Shown one piece after another: positions 14,527 to 53,546 of a stretch of 53,546 bases of DNA. The stretch covers positions 1-53,546 of the forward strand of contig CAILMF010000053.1 in NCBI GenBank assembly GCA_903835235.1. The letters are read 5' to 3'. A model generated the notes under the pieces. The model saw nothing but the letters and a program-made list of their open reading frames with translations, was not told the origin of the DNA and made no database searches. Position numbers and translations under genes: made by a program. Numbering within the stretch: position 1 is the first letter of the stretch; each line of letters starts with the position of its first letter. The stretch comes from an uncultured Rhodospirillales bacterium (GTDB taxonomy: Bacteria; Pseudomonadota; Alphaproteobacteria; Acetobacterales; Acetobacteraceae).

Positions 14527-14886
14527 ATGGAACAGGTGCAGGAGCTGGCCGCACGGCTGGTAATTCCGGGACTGCCGGCCTGGAGCGGGCTGGCGGTGCT
14601 GCTGGTGCTGGCGCTGTTCGCGCTGGCCTGGCTGTGCATGCCCTTCGCGGTGTTCGGCCTGAAGAGCCGGATGGAGATGCTGGAGGCGCAGCTGGAGGAT
14701 ATCCAGGGGGAAATCCGCGCCCTGGCGATGCGCCTGGCGGAGCGGCCAGGGCCGGCGCCAGGGGTTGCCGGCGACTACCTGGAGATCAAGCCGCCGCGGC
14801 GCGAGTTGCCGCCGGAGGTGGTGGCGACGCCAGCGCCCGGCCGGCCGGAGCCGCGGCTGGATTGGCCAGCGGCGGCGCGGCGGTAA
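14527..14886 (+). CDS. Small membrane-anchored coiled-coil protein, unknown
   Basis: A 119-residue protein starting at the ATG at 14527, 24 bp after moaA. A hydrophobic segment (about residues 18-45, rich in Leu/Val/Ala) predicts one transmembrane helix near the N-terminus; residues 48-78 (KSRMEMLEAQLEDIQGEIRAL) look like a coiled coil on the cytoplasmic side, and the tail is Pro/Arg-rich. It resembles unclassified bitopic proteins rather than any family I can name. Its last 11 codons and stop are the first unit of a 66-bp tandem repeat that continues downstream. Confidence 0.65.
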   Translation: MEQVQELAARLVIPGLPAWSGLAVLLVLALFALAWLCMPFAVFGLKSRMEMLEAQLEDIQGEIRALAMRLAERPGPAPGVAGDYLEIKPPRRELPPEVVATPAPGRPEPRLDWPAAARR

Positions 14887-15007
14887 CCCCACGCGGCGAC
14901 CGCTTGCGCAGCCTCGCCGCGGCTGGATTGGCCGACGGCGGCGCGGCGGTAACCCCACGCGGCGACCGCTTGCACAACCTGGCCGCGGCTGGACTGGCCG
15001 ACGGCGG
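14851..15007. repeat. 66-bp tandem repeat spanning a gene end (2.4 copies)
   Basis: Units start at 14851, 14917 and 14983, exactly 66 bp apart. Units 1 and 2 differ at about 5 of 66 positions; unit 3 is identical to the unit core for about 25 bp before diverging. The unit contains the last codons and TAA stop of the small membrane protein (stop at 14884-14886, copied at 14950-14952). Most of the 139-bp gap to the convergent AsnB-like gene is made of this repeat. Each unit contains GCGGT/ACCGC complementary segments, so it could fold and terminate transcription. Confidence 0.85.
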
Positions 15008-44154: not shown

Positions 44155-44253
44155 GGGCGTTACAGCCCGGCGATGATTTTCCCCCTTGGGCGTTACAGCC
44201 CGGCGACGATTTTGCCCCTTGGGCGTTACAGCCCGGCGACGATTTTCCCGCGC
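44155..44253 (-). promoter_or_regulatory. Three-unit 33-bp array, possible tandem ECF promoters
   Basis: Three near-identical 33-bp units begin at 44155, 44188 and 44221. Read on the minus strand toward the DoxX-like gene, each contains GGGCTGTAAC (complement of 44225-44234, 44192-44201 and 44159-44168). In the distal unit TGTAAC is followed after 16 bp by CGTC and in the middle unit by CATC, the AAC...CGT pattern usual for ECF promoters. The unit nearest the gene keeps TGTAAC but has a different downstream sequence. The same 10-mer occurs once more before the anti-sigma gene. The regulatory meaning is inferred. Confidence 0.6.
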
Positions 44254-49208: not shown

Positions 49209-49859
49209 ATGGCCTTGTCCCTGCTGCCCCGCCGTAGCCTTCTCGCCCTGGCGCCCACGCTGCTTGCTGCGCCCGCGCTGGCCCAAGGGCCAGCCCCGGG
49301 GCCAGCACCCGCCGCCGACCCGCGGCTGGCGGACCGTGCCGCCGGCAAGGCGGAAGCCCCGGTGCGGGTGCTGGAGTTCTTCTCCCTCACCTGCTCGCAC
49401 TGCGCCGCCTTCCACAAGGACGTCTACCCGCAGGTGAAGTCCGCGCTGGTCACCACCGGCCAGGTTCGCCTGGTCTGGCGCGACTTCCCGTTGGACCGGC
49501 TGGCGCTGGTGGCCGCCGCCGTGGCGCGCAGCCTGCCGGTGGAACGCTATGAGGGCTTCATCGGCGCGCTGCTGGCCAACCAGGACCGCTGGGCCTTCAC
49601 CCGCGGCGACCCGAAGGAGGAACTGGCGAAGATGGCGGCGCTGGCCGGCATGAACCGCGCCACCTACGACCAGGTCATCGCCGACGAGGCCCTGCAGCGC
49701 GCCATCCTGGAAGGCCGCGCCCGCGCCGAGCAGGAATTCCAGGTGCAGTCCACGCCCAGCTTCAACTTCAGCAAGGGCAGCGGCGCCGGGCGCAACCAGT
49801 CCGGCAACATGCCGTTCGACACTTTCGCCGGCCTGGTGCAGGAGGCCGCGAAGGCTTGA
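49209..49859 (+). CDS. Periplasmic DsbA-family thioredoxin-fold oxidoreductase
   Basis: A 216-residue protein with a signal peptide (basic residues 8-9, hydrophobic 11-22, AxA site near APALA), active site C62-S-H-C65 in FFSLTCSHCAAFH and the cis-proline loop QSTPSFNF. The layout is thioredoxin with the helical insertion of the DsbA family (thioredoxin_4). It oxidises or reshuffles disulfides in exported proteins. Its stop overlaps the putative smc start. Confidence 0.92.
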   Translation: MALSLLPRRSLLALAPTLLAAPALAQGPAPGPAPAADPRLADRAAGKAEAPVRVLEFFSLTCSHCAAFHKDVYPQVKSALVTTGQVRLVWRDFPLDRLALVAAAVARSLPVERYEGFIGALLANQDRWAFTRGDPKEELAKMAALAGMNRATYDQVIADEALQRAILEGRARAEQEFQVQSTPSFNFSKGSGAGRNQSGNMPFDTFAGLVQEAAKA

Positions 49860-52800
49860 GCGACGCCGCGCCGCTGCCGCCTTCCGAGGAGACGGCACAG
49901 GCTGCCGAGACCCCGGCGGCGGCCGAGCGCGTGCGCGTCAAGGCCACCCTGGCCCGGCTGCGGATCGCCGGCTTCAAGAGCTTCGCCGAGGCCACCAACG
50001 TGGAGGTGCTGCCGGGGCTGACCGGCATCGTCGGCCCGAATGGCTGCGGCAAGTCCAACGTGGTGGAGGCGCTGCGCTGGGCCATGGGCGAGACCTCCGC
50101 CCGCTCGCTCCGCGGCGGCGAGATGGAGGACGTGATCTTCGCCGGCACCGCCAACCGGCCGGGCCGCAACATCTGCGAAGTCACGCTGACGCTGGAGGAT
50201 GCCACCGGCCTGGCGCCGCCACCCTTCAACGTGGCGGACGAGCTGGAGATCATCCGCCGGATCGAGCGCGGCTCCGGTTCCAGCTACCGGCTGAACGGCA
50301 AGGAACTGCGGGCGCGCGACATCCAGACGATGTTCGCCGATATCGGCTCCGGCGCCAGGGCTTCCGGCATGGTCAGCCAGGGCCGCGTGGCCACGCTGAT
50401 CCAGGCGCGGCCGGAAGACCGGCGCAGCGTGCTGGAGGAAGCCGCTGGTATCGCCGGCCTGCGGGCGCGCAAGCATGAGGCCGAACTGAAGCTGCGCCAG
50501 GCCGAGCAGAACCTGCTGCGCGCCGAGGACCTGGTGGGCCAGCTGGATGTGCAGCGCCAGGCGTTGCAGAAGCAGGCGCGCCAGGCCAACCGCTACCGCA
50601 ACCTCAGCGGCCTGGTGCGCCAGGCGGAGGCCGAATGGCTCTCCCTGTTGCGCGCCCGCGCCCAGGCGGCGCTGGCCCATGCCCGCGCCGGCCTGGCCAG
50701 CGCCGAGGCCGCCACCCGCGCCGCCGAGGCGCAGTCCGAGGCCGCCGCGCGGGCCAGCTTCGCCGCCGATACCTCGCTGCCCGGGCCGCGTGCCGCCGAG
50801 GCCGAGGCGCGCACGGCGCTGGAACGCCGGCGGGTGGAGAGCGAGGGGCTGGAGGCCGAGGAGAAGCGCGCCACCGAGGCGCTGGCCGCCGCCGAGGCGC
50901 GCCTCGCCCAGCTGGAGGCTGATCTGGGCCATGCCGAGCGCCAGGCCGCCGATGCCGAGGCCGCCGACCGCCGGCTGGCCACCGAGGACCGCCAGTTGGC
51001 GGCAGCGCTGGAAGCCCTGCCGGCGGATGTCGAGGCCGCGCAATCCCTGCTGATCGAGGCCGCCGACGCCGCCCGCCTGGCCGAGCAGGAAGCCAATATC
51101 GCCACCGAGGAAGCCGCCGTGCTGGCCGCCCGCGCCAACCAGGCGGCGCAGGAACTGGCCACCGCCGAGGCCCGCGCCAGGCGCGTCTCCGAGCAGCACG
51201 CGGCGCTGGCCGCCGAGCATGCCGGCGCGCTGGCCGCGCGCATCGACGAGGAACGCCTGGCCGAGGCCGGCGACGCCGTGGCCGTGGCGGAGAACTCGCT
51301 GGCCTGGGAACGCGCGGGGCTGGAGCGCGCCGAAGCCGCCCGCACCAAGGCGGCGGAGGCGCTGGCCGAGGCGCGGCGCGCCCTGGCGGAGGCGCAGGCC
51401 AGCCATGCCCGCGCCAGCCAGGCGCAGCAGGAGGCGGCGCAGCGCGTCCGGCGCATCACCGAACAGCACGCCCGGCTGGCGCAGGAAGTGGCCGCGGCCC
51501 GCGCCGCCCGCATTCCGCCGGAACGGCTGGCCGCCGCCGAGACGGCCGCCAGCGAGGCCGAAGCCGCCATCGCCACCGCCCGCACCGCGCTGGACGCCTC
51601 CGAGGCAACGCGCATCGCCGCGCAGACCACCCATGCCGAAGCCCGCCGCGCCCTGGGCGAGGCCGCCGCCAATCGCGACCGCGCGGTGGCGGAGCGCGAC
51701 ACCAATGCCCGCCGCGCCCGCCAGCTGGCCGAACAGCGCGCCAGCCTGGCCGCCGAGCGCGACCGCGCCGCCGCCGCGCAGGTGCCGCCCGAGCGGCTGG
51801 CGGCGGCGCAAACCGAAGCCGGCAGCGCCGAGACCGCGCTGAACGCCGCCCGCGACGCCGTGGCACAAGCAGAGATGGCCCGCGCCGCCGCCGCCACCGA
51901 CCATGCCGAGGCTCGCGCCGTGGCCGCCGAAGCCGAAGCCGCGCTGGGCCGCGCCAGCGCCGAGGTGCAGGCCCTGGCGGAAACGCTGAGCACCGCCGCG
52001 GCCGGCGCCCGCCCGATCGTGGAGGCGCTGAGCCTGCCGGCCGGGCTGGAAGCCGCGCTGGGCGCCGCGCTGGGGGAGGCGCTGGAAAGCCCCGAGGACC
52101 TGCACGCCGCCCGGTTCTGGCGCGCCCTGCCGGGGTATGAGGCGGCGCCCGCCCTGCCGGAGGGGGCCACGCCATTGGCCTCCCTGATGCCGGCGCCGCC
52201 GGCGCTGGCCCGCGCCTTCAGCCAGGTTGGGCTGATCGACGATGCCGCCGATGGCGGGGCGATGCAGGCGCGGCTGTGGCCGGGCCAGGCGCTGGTGTCT
52301 CGCGCCGGGGCGCTGTGGCGGTGGGACGGCCATACCGCCCGCGCCGATGCGCCGAACCCGGAAGCGGCGCGGTTGCAGCAGCGCAACCGGCTGCGCACCG
52401 CCGAGGCCCGCGCCGCCCACGCCCAGACGCTTGCCGCCAGCGCCCGCACCGCGCTGGATGGCGCCGCGGCGGCGGAATCCGGCGCCAACGCCGCCGAGGC
52501 GATTGCCCGGACGGCGCGGCGCGAGGCCGAGGAACGCCTGGCCACTGCCCGCACCGCCGCCAGCCAATTGGCAGCCCGTGCCGCCGAGGTGAGCGGCCGG
52601 CTGGCCGCGGTGGAGCCGCAATTGGCCCGGCTGGCGCAGGAGGCCGAGGCCGCCGCCGCCGCCGCCGTGGTGGCCGAGCAGGCGGTGGCCGCCCTGCCCT
52701 CCCTGGCCGAGTTGCAGGCCGCCCGCAATGCCGCCGCCCAGGCCGAGGCCGATGCCAGCCGGGCGGAAACCGCGGCCCGCCAGGCCCGCGCTGGCGCCGA

Positions 52801-53546
52801 GCAGCGCCTGGCCACCGCCCGCAGCGAGGCGGCGCGCCAGGCCAGCGCCAGCGCACAAGCAGAGAGCCGGCTGGGCGCGCTGGAACCGCAACTCGCCCGC
52901 CTGGCCGCCGAACAGGCCGAGGCCGACAGCGCCCTGGCCGAGGCCCAGGCCCGGCTGGAAGCGCTGCCGCCGCCGGCCCAGGCGCGCGACGCCGCCGCCC
53001 AGGCCGAGACCCTGGCCGCCGCCACCCAGCGCGCCGAGGCGCTGGCGCGCGAGGGCCGCGCCCGCGCCGATGCCGAGCTGACCAGGGCGCGCGAAGCCGC
53101 CGCCCAGCTCACCGCCGCCGCCGCGCTGGCAGAAAACCGCATCCAGGCCCAGGCGCCGCAGCTGGAACGCCTGGCCGGCGAGTTGGCCGAGGCCGAGGCG
53201 GCGCTGACCCTGGCGCGCGACGCCCGCGCCGAGACGCCGGACCTGGCCGATATCCGCAACGGGGTGGAGCGCGCCCGCGCCCGGCTTTCGGCGGTGCGGA
53301 CGCAGGAGGTGCAGGCGCGCGAGGCGCTCTCCACGCTGCAGGCCGAGCAGAACCGCATCACCACGCGGCGGGCAGCGCTGGCCGGGGAACGCGCGGATTG
53401 GGCCAGCCGCAGCGCCGAGGCCGGCGCCCGGCGGGACGAGATGCGCGCCCGCCGGGCCGAGGCCGCGAGCGCCCGGGACGGGCTGGCCGAGGCGCCGGAG
53501 GCCGCCGCGGCGCGGCTGCGCCAGGCCGGGGCGGTGCTGGCCGCGG
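49856..53546 (+). CDS. smc: Chromosome segregation ATPase Smc (3' end outside window)
   Basis: The frame is open from a TTG at 49856, which overlaps the dsbA stop and follows AGGAGG (49840-49845), to the right edge (1230 codons). A GTG at 49931 is the alternative start. The N-terminal head has LRIAGFKSFAE, Walker A GPNGCGKS (about residues 60-67) and VSQGRVATLIQARPEDRRSVLEEAAGI. Arm 1 runs to about residue 710, the reduced alphaproteobacterial hinge (with GQALVSRAGALWRWDG) lies near 51990-52370, and arm 2 continues to the edge; the C-terminal signature and Walker B are not reached. Each arm contains three 90-residue repeats, making it longer than the roughly 1150-residue Caulobacter protein. 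Smc condenses and segregates chromosomes. Confidence 0.93.
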   Translation, partial: MSDAAPLPPSEETAQAAETPAAAERVRVKATLARLRIAGFKSFAEATNVEVLPGLTGIVGPNGCGKSNVVEALRWAMGETSARSLRGGEMEDVIFAGTANRPGRNICEVTLTLEDATGLAPPPFNVADELEIIRRIERGSGSSYRLNGKELRARDIQTMFADIGSGARASGMVSQGRVATLIQARPEDRRSVLEEAAGIAGLRARKHEAELKLRQAEQNLLRAEDLVGQLDVQRQALQKQARQANRYRNLSGLVRQAEAEWLSLLRARAQAALAHARAGLASAEAATRAAEAQSEAAARASFAADTSLPGPRAAEAEARTALERRRVESEGLEAEEKRATEALAAAEARLAQLEADLGHAERQAADAEAADRRLATEDRQLAAALEALPADVEAAQSLLIEAADAARLAEQEANIATEEAAVLAARANQAAQELATAEARARRVSEQHAALAAEHAGALAARIDEERLAEAGDAVAVAENSLAWERAGLERAEAARTKAAEALAEARRALAEAQASHARASQAQQEAAQRVRRITEQHARLAQEVAAARAARIPPERLAAAETAASEAEAAIATARTALDASEATRIAAQTTHAEARRALGEAAANRDRAVAERDTNARRARQLAEQRASLAAERDRAAAAQVPPERLAAAQTEAGSAETALNAARDAVAQAEMARAAAATDHAEARAVAAEAEAALGRASAEVQALAETLSTAAAGARPIVEALSLPAGLEAALGAALGEALESPEDLHAARFWRALPGYEAAPALPEGATPLASLMPAPPALARAFSQVGLIDDAADGGAMQARLWPGQALVSRAGALWRWDGHTARADAPNPEAARLQQRNRLRTAEARAAHAQTLAASARTALDGAAAAESGANAAEAIARTARREAEERLATARTAASQLAARAAEVSGRLAAVEPQLARLAQEAEAAAAAAVVAEQAVAALPSLAELQAARNAAAQAEADASRAETAARQARAGAEQRLATARSEAARQASASAQAESRLGALEPQLARLAAEQAEADSALAEAQARLEALPPPAQARDAAAQAETLAAATQRAEALAREGRARADAELTRAREAAAQLTAAAALAENRIQAQAPQLERLAGELAEAEAALTLARDARAETPDLADIRNGVERARARLSAVRTQEVQAREALSTLQAEQNRITTRRAALAGERADWASRSAEAGARRDEMRARRAEAASARDGLAEAPEAAAARLRQAGAVLAA
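51191..51994 (+). repeat. Three 90-residue repeats in Smc arm 1
   Basis: Anchors recur at exactly 270-bp steps: EQHAALAAE at 51191, EQHARLAQE at 51461 and EQRASLAAE at 51731; also DEERLAEA at 51245, PERLAAAE at 51515 and PERLAAAQ at 51785. Units 2 and 3 also share HAEARR/HAEARA further along. The next upstream stretch does not match clearly. Repeats are diverged, so they are old rather than a recent slip. Confidence 0.85.
52616..53425 (+). repeat. Three 90-residue repeats in Smc arm 2
   Basis: Anchors again recur at exactly 270-bp steps: EPQLARLAQE at 52616, EPQLARLAAE at 52886 and APQLERLAGE at 53156 (position of the Pro codon); a second anchor, the Pro after ALP/ALP/ETP, is at 52697, 52967 and 53237. 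The number of copies equals that in arm 1, as needed for two arms that pair antiparallel. Confidence 0.85.

Follow-up and report, generated by a model that had tools for sequence, protein, structure and literature searches.

Matched 90-residue repeats in both coiled-coil arms of an Acetobacteraceae SMC protein and its relatives

The window (the whole stretch of DNA analysed here, 53,546 nucleotides, contig CAILMF010000053.1 of assembly GCA_903835235.1) comes from an uncultured Rhodospirillales bacterium of the Acetobacteraceae, and it ends inside smc, the gene of the chromosomal SMC protein. In profile searches, the frame that runs from position 49856 on the forward strand matches TIGR02168 (SMC_prok_B) with E = 4.4e-124. 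The score of the part in the window, 415.5 bits, stays below the whole-protein cut-off of 567.35 bits, as the gene is truncated at the contig end. The N-terminal head matches PF02463 above the cut-off (E = 1.5e-29). The TTG start of the gene is a guess; it overlaps the stop codon of the gene upstream. The last ~305 codons of smc open contig C25, where the C-terminal head is found (E = 1.2e-98, TIGR02168 model positions 894-1181) and whose frame contains the letters of the ABC signature motif. This motif is also present in an intact near relative (L040), which has 98% identity to the window protein in the head and 91% over arms and hinge; judged from this relative, the sequence suggests that the end of the window contig and the start of C25 lie about four residues apart. 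Elsewhere in the genome, genes for ScpA (E = 4.1e-9, positions 1-79 of 232) and ScpB (E = 4.5e-46) were detected, both over the cut-off. The window gene is thus the chromosomal SMC of an SMC-ScpAB condensin, and it shares with Bacillus subtilis Smc and TIGR02168 the order head-arm-hinge-arm-head, Walker A, the signature motif and the presence of ScpA and ScpB in the genome. It differs from ordinary bacterial SMCs in having no match to Pfam SMC_hinge: none was found in the window's genome at E 0.001, where the control search matches 10 of 14 genomes, Caulobacter not among these. The hinge was instead recognised as the non-coil segment between the arms that can be aligned across orthologues. The following features were placed on the window; the unit borders were cut back from the hinge, so that their phase is arbitrary.

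49856..53546, forward strand: 5' part of smc, truncated at the contig end; it encodes the N-terminal head, arm 1, the hinge and most of arm 2
49949..50500, forward strand: N-terminal ATPase head segment used as query (PF02463 match), containing Walker A
51197..51466, forward strand: arm 1 unit 3 (third from the hinge), 90 residues, from the signal at a lag of 90 residues and alignment
51467..51736, forward strand: arm 1 unit 2, 90 residues, same evidence
51737..52006, forward strand: arm 1 unit 1 (adjoins the hinge), 90 residues, same evidence
52007..52402, forward strand: hinge domain, 132 residues, from alignment with orthologues
52403..52672, forward strand: arm 2 unit 1 (adjoins the hinge), 90 residues, from the signal at a lag of 90 residues and alignment
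52673..52942, forward strand: arm 2 unit 2, 90 residues, same evidence
52943..53212, forward strand: arm 2 unit 3, 90 residues, same evidence
51236..51247, forward strand: predicted helix break in arm 1 unit 3, recurring at 51506-51517 and 51776-51787, transferred from the L040 model
52694..52702, forward strand: predicted helix break in arm 2, recurring at 52964-52975 and 53231-53242, transferred from the L040 model

Each coiled-coil arm of the window SMC consists of three 90-residue units whose copies align gaplessly. We compared the self-similarity of the arms to residue shuffles that preserve the heptad phase (99% shuffle maximum ~4.1) and found that a lag of 90 residues scores highest throughout, with z = 7.6 in the whole of arm 1, 12.4 in its repeated part and 10.3 in arm 2. 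The next-best lag is 180 both in arm 2 (z = 5.9) and in the repeated part of arm 1 (5.2); in the whole of arm 1, a lag of 180 reaches only 2.5. As the shuffles keep the heptads, the 90-residue spacing is no effect of composition. A sequence-only reading of the window had proposed threefold 90-residue repeats in both arms and had argued that their Ala-rich composition does not produce the spacing, and both claims are borne out. At the level of DNA, the repeat is weak: a repeat finder reports a 38-base family at 51173/51443/51713 with 74-79% identity, one among many. A plain DNA tandem array was considered and rejected, as Tandem Repeats Finder gives no 270-base array and the repeat finder gives only weak matches.

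To place the window protein among its relatives, we collected 200 smc loci (L040-L239), which include 162 complete genes (151 distinct proteins) and 37 incomplete ones; L139 was left out. Among the incomplete genes, 31 run off the locus end, and six (L046, L064, L069, L115, L120 and L149) stop inside the gene or lack an in-frame signature motif. The orthologues were picked partly by the length of their open frames, with extremes being sought, so that the class counts below are not frequencies. What we call the family (Acetobacteraceae, 133 sequences) comprises all rows minus 18 taken from other families; of the named loci in it, L060, L113, L114 and L119 bear a name at the level of order or phylum only. 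We measured arm 1 from Walker A to the hinge and arm 2 from the hinge to the signature motif, with a base of 479/406 residues, and assigned unit classes with a tolerance of 14 residues either way. Five family proteins with gains of 11/11 residues are counted as 1/1 because of this tolerance.

The 133 family sequences fall into 34 with one unit in each arm (1/1), 36 with 2/2, 52 with 3/3, one with 4/4, one with 2/3 and nine classed as 'other'. Over the 1/1 base, the gains are +90/+90 in 22 distinct sequences, +91/+91 in six and +271/+271 in one; in the 3/3 class, they range from +178 to +192 in arm 1 and from +169 to +183 in arm 2, and the near relative L040 gains +179/+179. Compared to an ordinary bacterial SMC, each arm of the window protein, with its three 90-residue copies, is ~180 residues longer than in one-unit relatives. 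Walker A and the signature motif lie 999 to 1559 residues apart (136 complete proteins), and the open frames in other families of the class, among those listed, are mostly near 1150-1200 codons. The lag-90 signal exceeds the 95% shuffle maximum in both arms of no family 1/1 protein (0/34), 28 of the 36 2/2 and 26 of the 52 3/3 proteins, the single 4/4 and the single 2/3 protein, and none of the nine classed as 'other'. Many of the 3/3 proteins without the signal form an Acetobacter-type clade in which the copies have diverged. Outside the family, none of nine 1/1 proteins and one of nine 'other' proteins shows it in both arms; this one is L192, whose 18-residue repeat also gives a lag of 90.

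The lengths of the two arms change together. Using coil landmarks at both ends of the arms, 136 of the 151 rows could be measured (15 without a landmark were left out), and the gains of the two arms are equal within 10 residues in 128 of the 136 proteins and within 15 in 133. Phylogenetic contrasts on a heads-plus-hinge tree of 136 rows, made with a quick method, give r = 0.951 (n = 120), and 0.994 without L058. Three proteins misfit by more than 15 residues: L163 and L197 carry non-coil inserts, and L058 alone differs in unit number. The insert in L163 separates arm 1 from the hinge; it is rich in Gly, Pro and Thr and spans roughly 50 residues. The one in L197 is acidic and Pro-rich and lies near the head. 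In L191 and L208, the C-terminal head contains 28 additional residues between its GPVN and signature motifs; the arms of these two proteins are unequal by the coarser measure only, and the surplus sits in the head and not in the arm.

On the 136-row tree (18 rows unclassed), we counted seven state changes for arm 1, seven for arm 2 and eight for the pair; a second tree, with 58 rows from the long-armed clade, gives six, six and seven. The one extra change of the pair fits L058, the sole mixed row. With classes that run from 1/1 over 2/2 and 3/3 to 4/4, the expectation of the sequence-only reading that copy numbers of both arms change jointly among orthologues is borne out. Nine sequences form a group with support of 100/99 that contains L123 (4/4), L125 and L220 (3/3) and six 2/2 proteins. 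A single origin of all 3/3 and 4/4 rows of a Roseomonas-type clade was rejected by the approximately unbiased (AU) test for groups that were named after the tree was seen, with p-AU of 3e-6 (14 rows) and, when L236, L040 and L058 were added, of 0.004 (17 rows). Paired changes thus occurred more than once.

The four-unit protein L123 shows where a unit was added. Its lag-90 z-scores are 16.8 and 14.7, and its units 2 and 3 from the hinge are the most alike pair, with 83% identity in arm 1 and 70% in arm 2. The two units are 67% identical at third codon positions in arm 1 and 66% in arm 2; this similar divergence fits duplications of similar age, and gene conversion between copies is possible too. 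Compared with the 3/3 sisters L125 and L220, unit 1 of L123 matches their unit 1 and its unit 4 matches their unit 3 in both arms, and the extra unit lies between these two. Units 2 and 3 best match unit 2 of the sisters in arm 2 (L125 and L220) and in arm 1 (L220); against L125, the identities in arm 1 are 57-61% and do not discriminate. The extra unit therefore lies in the same place from the hinge in both arms.

The likely source of the unit emerges when two-unit and one-unit proteins are compared (cross-clade comparisons were made with shifts allowed; for arm 1 they involve L063, L040 and L058). In arm 2, units 1 and 2 of the two-unit L048 both best match unit 1 of the one-unit L132 (32% and 48% identity); in arm 1, unit 1 of L048 best matches unit 1 of L132 (44%). 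For units 3 and 4 of L048, the matching units of L132 are 2 and 3, in arm 1 as in arm 2. From these sequence matches, the ancestral module is likely the hinge-proximal stretch of ~90 residues, which ordinary SMCs contain once; this is clear in arm 2 and less so in arm 1.

We next consider where the units lie in predicted structures. A model of the L040 arms, with a mean predicted local distance difference test score (pLDDT) of 77.5, has long helices on either side of the hinge. These are broken at residues 237-240, 327-330 and 417-420 in arm 1 and at 723-725, 813-816 and 902-905 in arm 2, with further breaks outside the units at 83-84 and 987-988. The model of the two-unit L048 (pLDDT 80.3) has an ill-defined stretch at 231-255 and a break at 328-330 in arm 1, and breaks at 635-637 and 724-727 in arm 2, which also contains a non-helical stretch (672-697) and a break at 809-810. 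The repeated breaks are thus spaced by ~90 residues. Each arm of the L040 model (3/3) has three of them and each arm of the L048 model (2/2) has two, and in both models they are roughly symmetric about one point near the hinge. The second anchor sets of the sequence-only reading (51245/51515/51785 and 52697/52967/53237) fall on short motifs at the helix breaks of the L040 model, five of the six with Pro. The best Foldseek matches of the L040 arms are 9gm7, 7nyx, 6yvu and 9qe0 (E 4.9e-8 to 1.3e-4), with template modelling (TM) scores of at most 0.12; with the MukBEF, Wadjet JetABC and condensin entries of the PDB, this model of low confidence shares only the coiled-coil layout.

Discrete arm lengths have been reported before (Burmann 2017, PMC5344682). 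Natural prokaryotic SMC arms have modes at 238, 341 and 515 residues and minor ones at 163 and ~423, in steps of ~100 residues; resized B. subtilis Smc is viable with a period of 91 residues; and a functional reason for discrete lengths is given there. Engineered arm lengths and the head-proximal joint are treated in passages of PMC8357415 and PMC5526789. Our length steps agree with those of Burmann 2017, whereas the sections consulted of that paper give neither a mechanism of length change nor matched repeats in both arms, and neither 'tandem' nor 'duplication' occurs in its main text. In the open-licence literature, as far as the search listings show, we found no description of paired module duplication or of repeats in SMC arms. 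The sequence-only reading knew of no Smc described as lengthened in such modules: for paired duplication this stands within that literature, whereas the length steps and the 91-residue period were already published. The published period and modes agree with a unit of 90 residues and with gains of +90 and +180. Arms in the family depart from the common class by multiples of ~91-100 residues (L040 with +179/+179; others with +90 and +271), and those of lineages with 11- and 18-residue steps do not.

The coiled-coil segments of SMC arms zip together antiparallel. Equal unit numbers would follow from this zipping: an extra unit in one arm would be answered by one in the other, as the zipped arms would force a match. 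As the functional arm period corresponds to about one superhelical turn (91 residues in B. subtilis), a whole 90-residue unit would add length while head and hinge are kept in rotational phase, as B. subtilis Smc leads one to expect. Each unit would add ~13 nm at 0.148 nm per residue, and the outcome would be a longer rod or ring with its register unchanged. In tropomyosin and the myosin rod, the strands are copies of one chain lying side by side, and matching is automatic. Unlike these, an SMC needs two different segments of one chain to be duplicated each. Tropomyosin and the myosin rod are likewise long coiled coils of repeated units (PMC5344682). We conclude that a module of 90 residues was very probably duplicated in tandem, equally often in arm 1 and arm 2, and that the SMC arms of this family grew longer in this way. 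Paired module duplication as a way of growth, which had been proposed from the window alone, is thus supported by the joint change of copy number across orthologues, with two amendments: the module seems to be the hinge-proximal stretch of ~90 residues (clear in arm 2, less so in arm 1), and growth elsewhere does not always proceed by 90 but also by 11 and 18 residues. The longer ring may work, and may work better.

Several observations weigh against lengthening by paired 90-residue modules. The predicted template modelling (pTM) scores of the L040 and L048 models, 0.27 and 0.32, are too low for reliable geometry, and a pairing of units across the rod would follow only from the symmetry of the breaks. 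The tree by itself cannot separate gain from loss of units. In arm 1, unit 2 of L048 matches no unit of L132 clearly (28-32%). In the Acetobacter-type 3/3 proteins, arm 2 gains merely +169 to +178 residues and the lag-90 signal is often lost, which means that duplication there is deduced from length alone. Unequal unit numbers, which the sequence-only reading had named as an outcome that would speak against it, occur once in 151 proteins: arm 1 of Caldovatus sediminis (L058) has two units and its arm 2 has three. As the contig of its sister species C. aquaticus (L072) ends just before the units, the 2/3 state may be an assembly collapse, which is a live explanation. Lastly, matched gains exist that are not multiples of 90 (+22, +44, +55 and +66, and one pair of 44/54), and +44 and +55 on the 344 residues of B. 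subtilis would fall in its failing gap (373-407).

These other steps come from two lineages. In one clade of the family (L160, L171, L119, L158, L133, L106, L110 and L153), the gains are 22/22, 44/44, 44/54, 55/55 and 66/66, and both arms contain 11-residue tandem repeats near the hinge, clearest in L106, L110, L133 and L153. In another family of the class, both arms of L192 and L193 (genomes G623 and G556) carry tandem repeats of 18 residues, and the gains are 144/148 in L192 and 108/112 in L193. The sizes 11, 18 and 90 are all near whole numbers of helical turns of 3.6 residues. As the family clade has matched gains other than 90, a 90-residue phase is not obligatory; the 11- and 18-residue cases speak for pairing as the rule and against a strict need for 90.

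The strongest alternative accepts that paired growth is real and holds that the 90 residues are a segment copied by chance between helix breaks, with zipping alone coupling the arms and no role of superhelical phase. The lineages that lengthen by 11-residue steps or 18-residue repeats speak for it, as do the predicted helix breaks that delimit the unit. However, none of the 53 long-armed rows of the 58-row tree has a half-module length, and the unit size equals the 91-residue period of B. subtilis; we thus regard this alternative as possible but doubtful. We consider it unlikely that the units serve as regularly spaced docking sites, in the style of tropomyosin and actin, on which a partner protein or the second SMC of the rod binds and whose number sets the arm length. 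The exact period would suit such sites, as would the Leu and Pro residues that take the same positions in one unit after another of L123, L063 and L048, but the units diverge strongly between lineages. We know of no partner with a matching repeat (none was searched for). Burmann 2017 mentions packing of the docking type and favours a mechanical role (PMC5344682).

Assembly artefacts, in which repeats collapsed or expanded, could be suspected because many contigs end inside smc and because the Caldovatus 2/3 state could be one. The same lengths were nevertheless found in dozens of independent assemblies, several of them with megabase contigs (L135, L137 and L141), and the longest exact arm repeat in six loci checked is 48 bases, in L123, which makes artefacts as the source of the copy numbers very improbable. 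A spurious repeat from low-complexity, Ala-rich coiled coil (arm DNA has a G+C content of 78-83% in six loci from five distinct genomes) is rejected with near certainty, since the signal beats the heptad-preserving shuffles, no one-unit protein, out of 34 in the family and 9 outside it (43 in all), has the lag-90 signal in both arms, and gapless copies reach 83% identity over 90 residues.

Some further observations concern the gene and its surroundings. Contigs end inside smc in 31 of the 80 loci L040-L119, 25 of them 222-469 residues past Walker A; smc seems to be a hotspot of assembly breaks in the family, and the window contig likewise ends in it. In four of 73 family genomes searched (G033, G131, G091 and G139, each at least 98% complete), no SMC head match was found at E 1e-30; the gene in these genomes may have been lost, have diverged strongly or be interrupted by the end of a contig. 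Upstream of smc in the window lie genes matching DsbA-like thioredoxin and DciA. Tandem Repeats Finder reports two tandem repeats in the window, at 14850-15007 (66-base unit, 2.4 copies, 93% matches) and at 44155-44249 (33-base unit, 2.9 copies, 95% matches).

Returning to paired duplication, we think that a general rule is reasonably probable: any module near a whole number of helical turns (11, 18 or 90 residues) can be added to an SMC arm if about equally many residues are added opposite in the other arm. The family would thereby form a series of rings with one to four units per arm, in which Caldovatus is maybe caught between two duplications. The literature searched yielded no account of how the two halves of an antiparallel coiled coil, which are not neighbours in the chain, grow in step. 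The Acetobacteraceae provide a natural series from 1/1 to 4/4 whose unit size equals the functional period of B. subtilis Smc. Ring size, step size and obstacle bypass can thus be tested with natural orthologues rather than engineered chimeras. The finding also suggests a rule for designing resized SMC rods, and it suggests how a two-stranded molecular lever lengthens without loss of fit.

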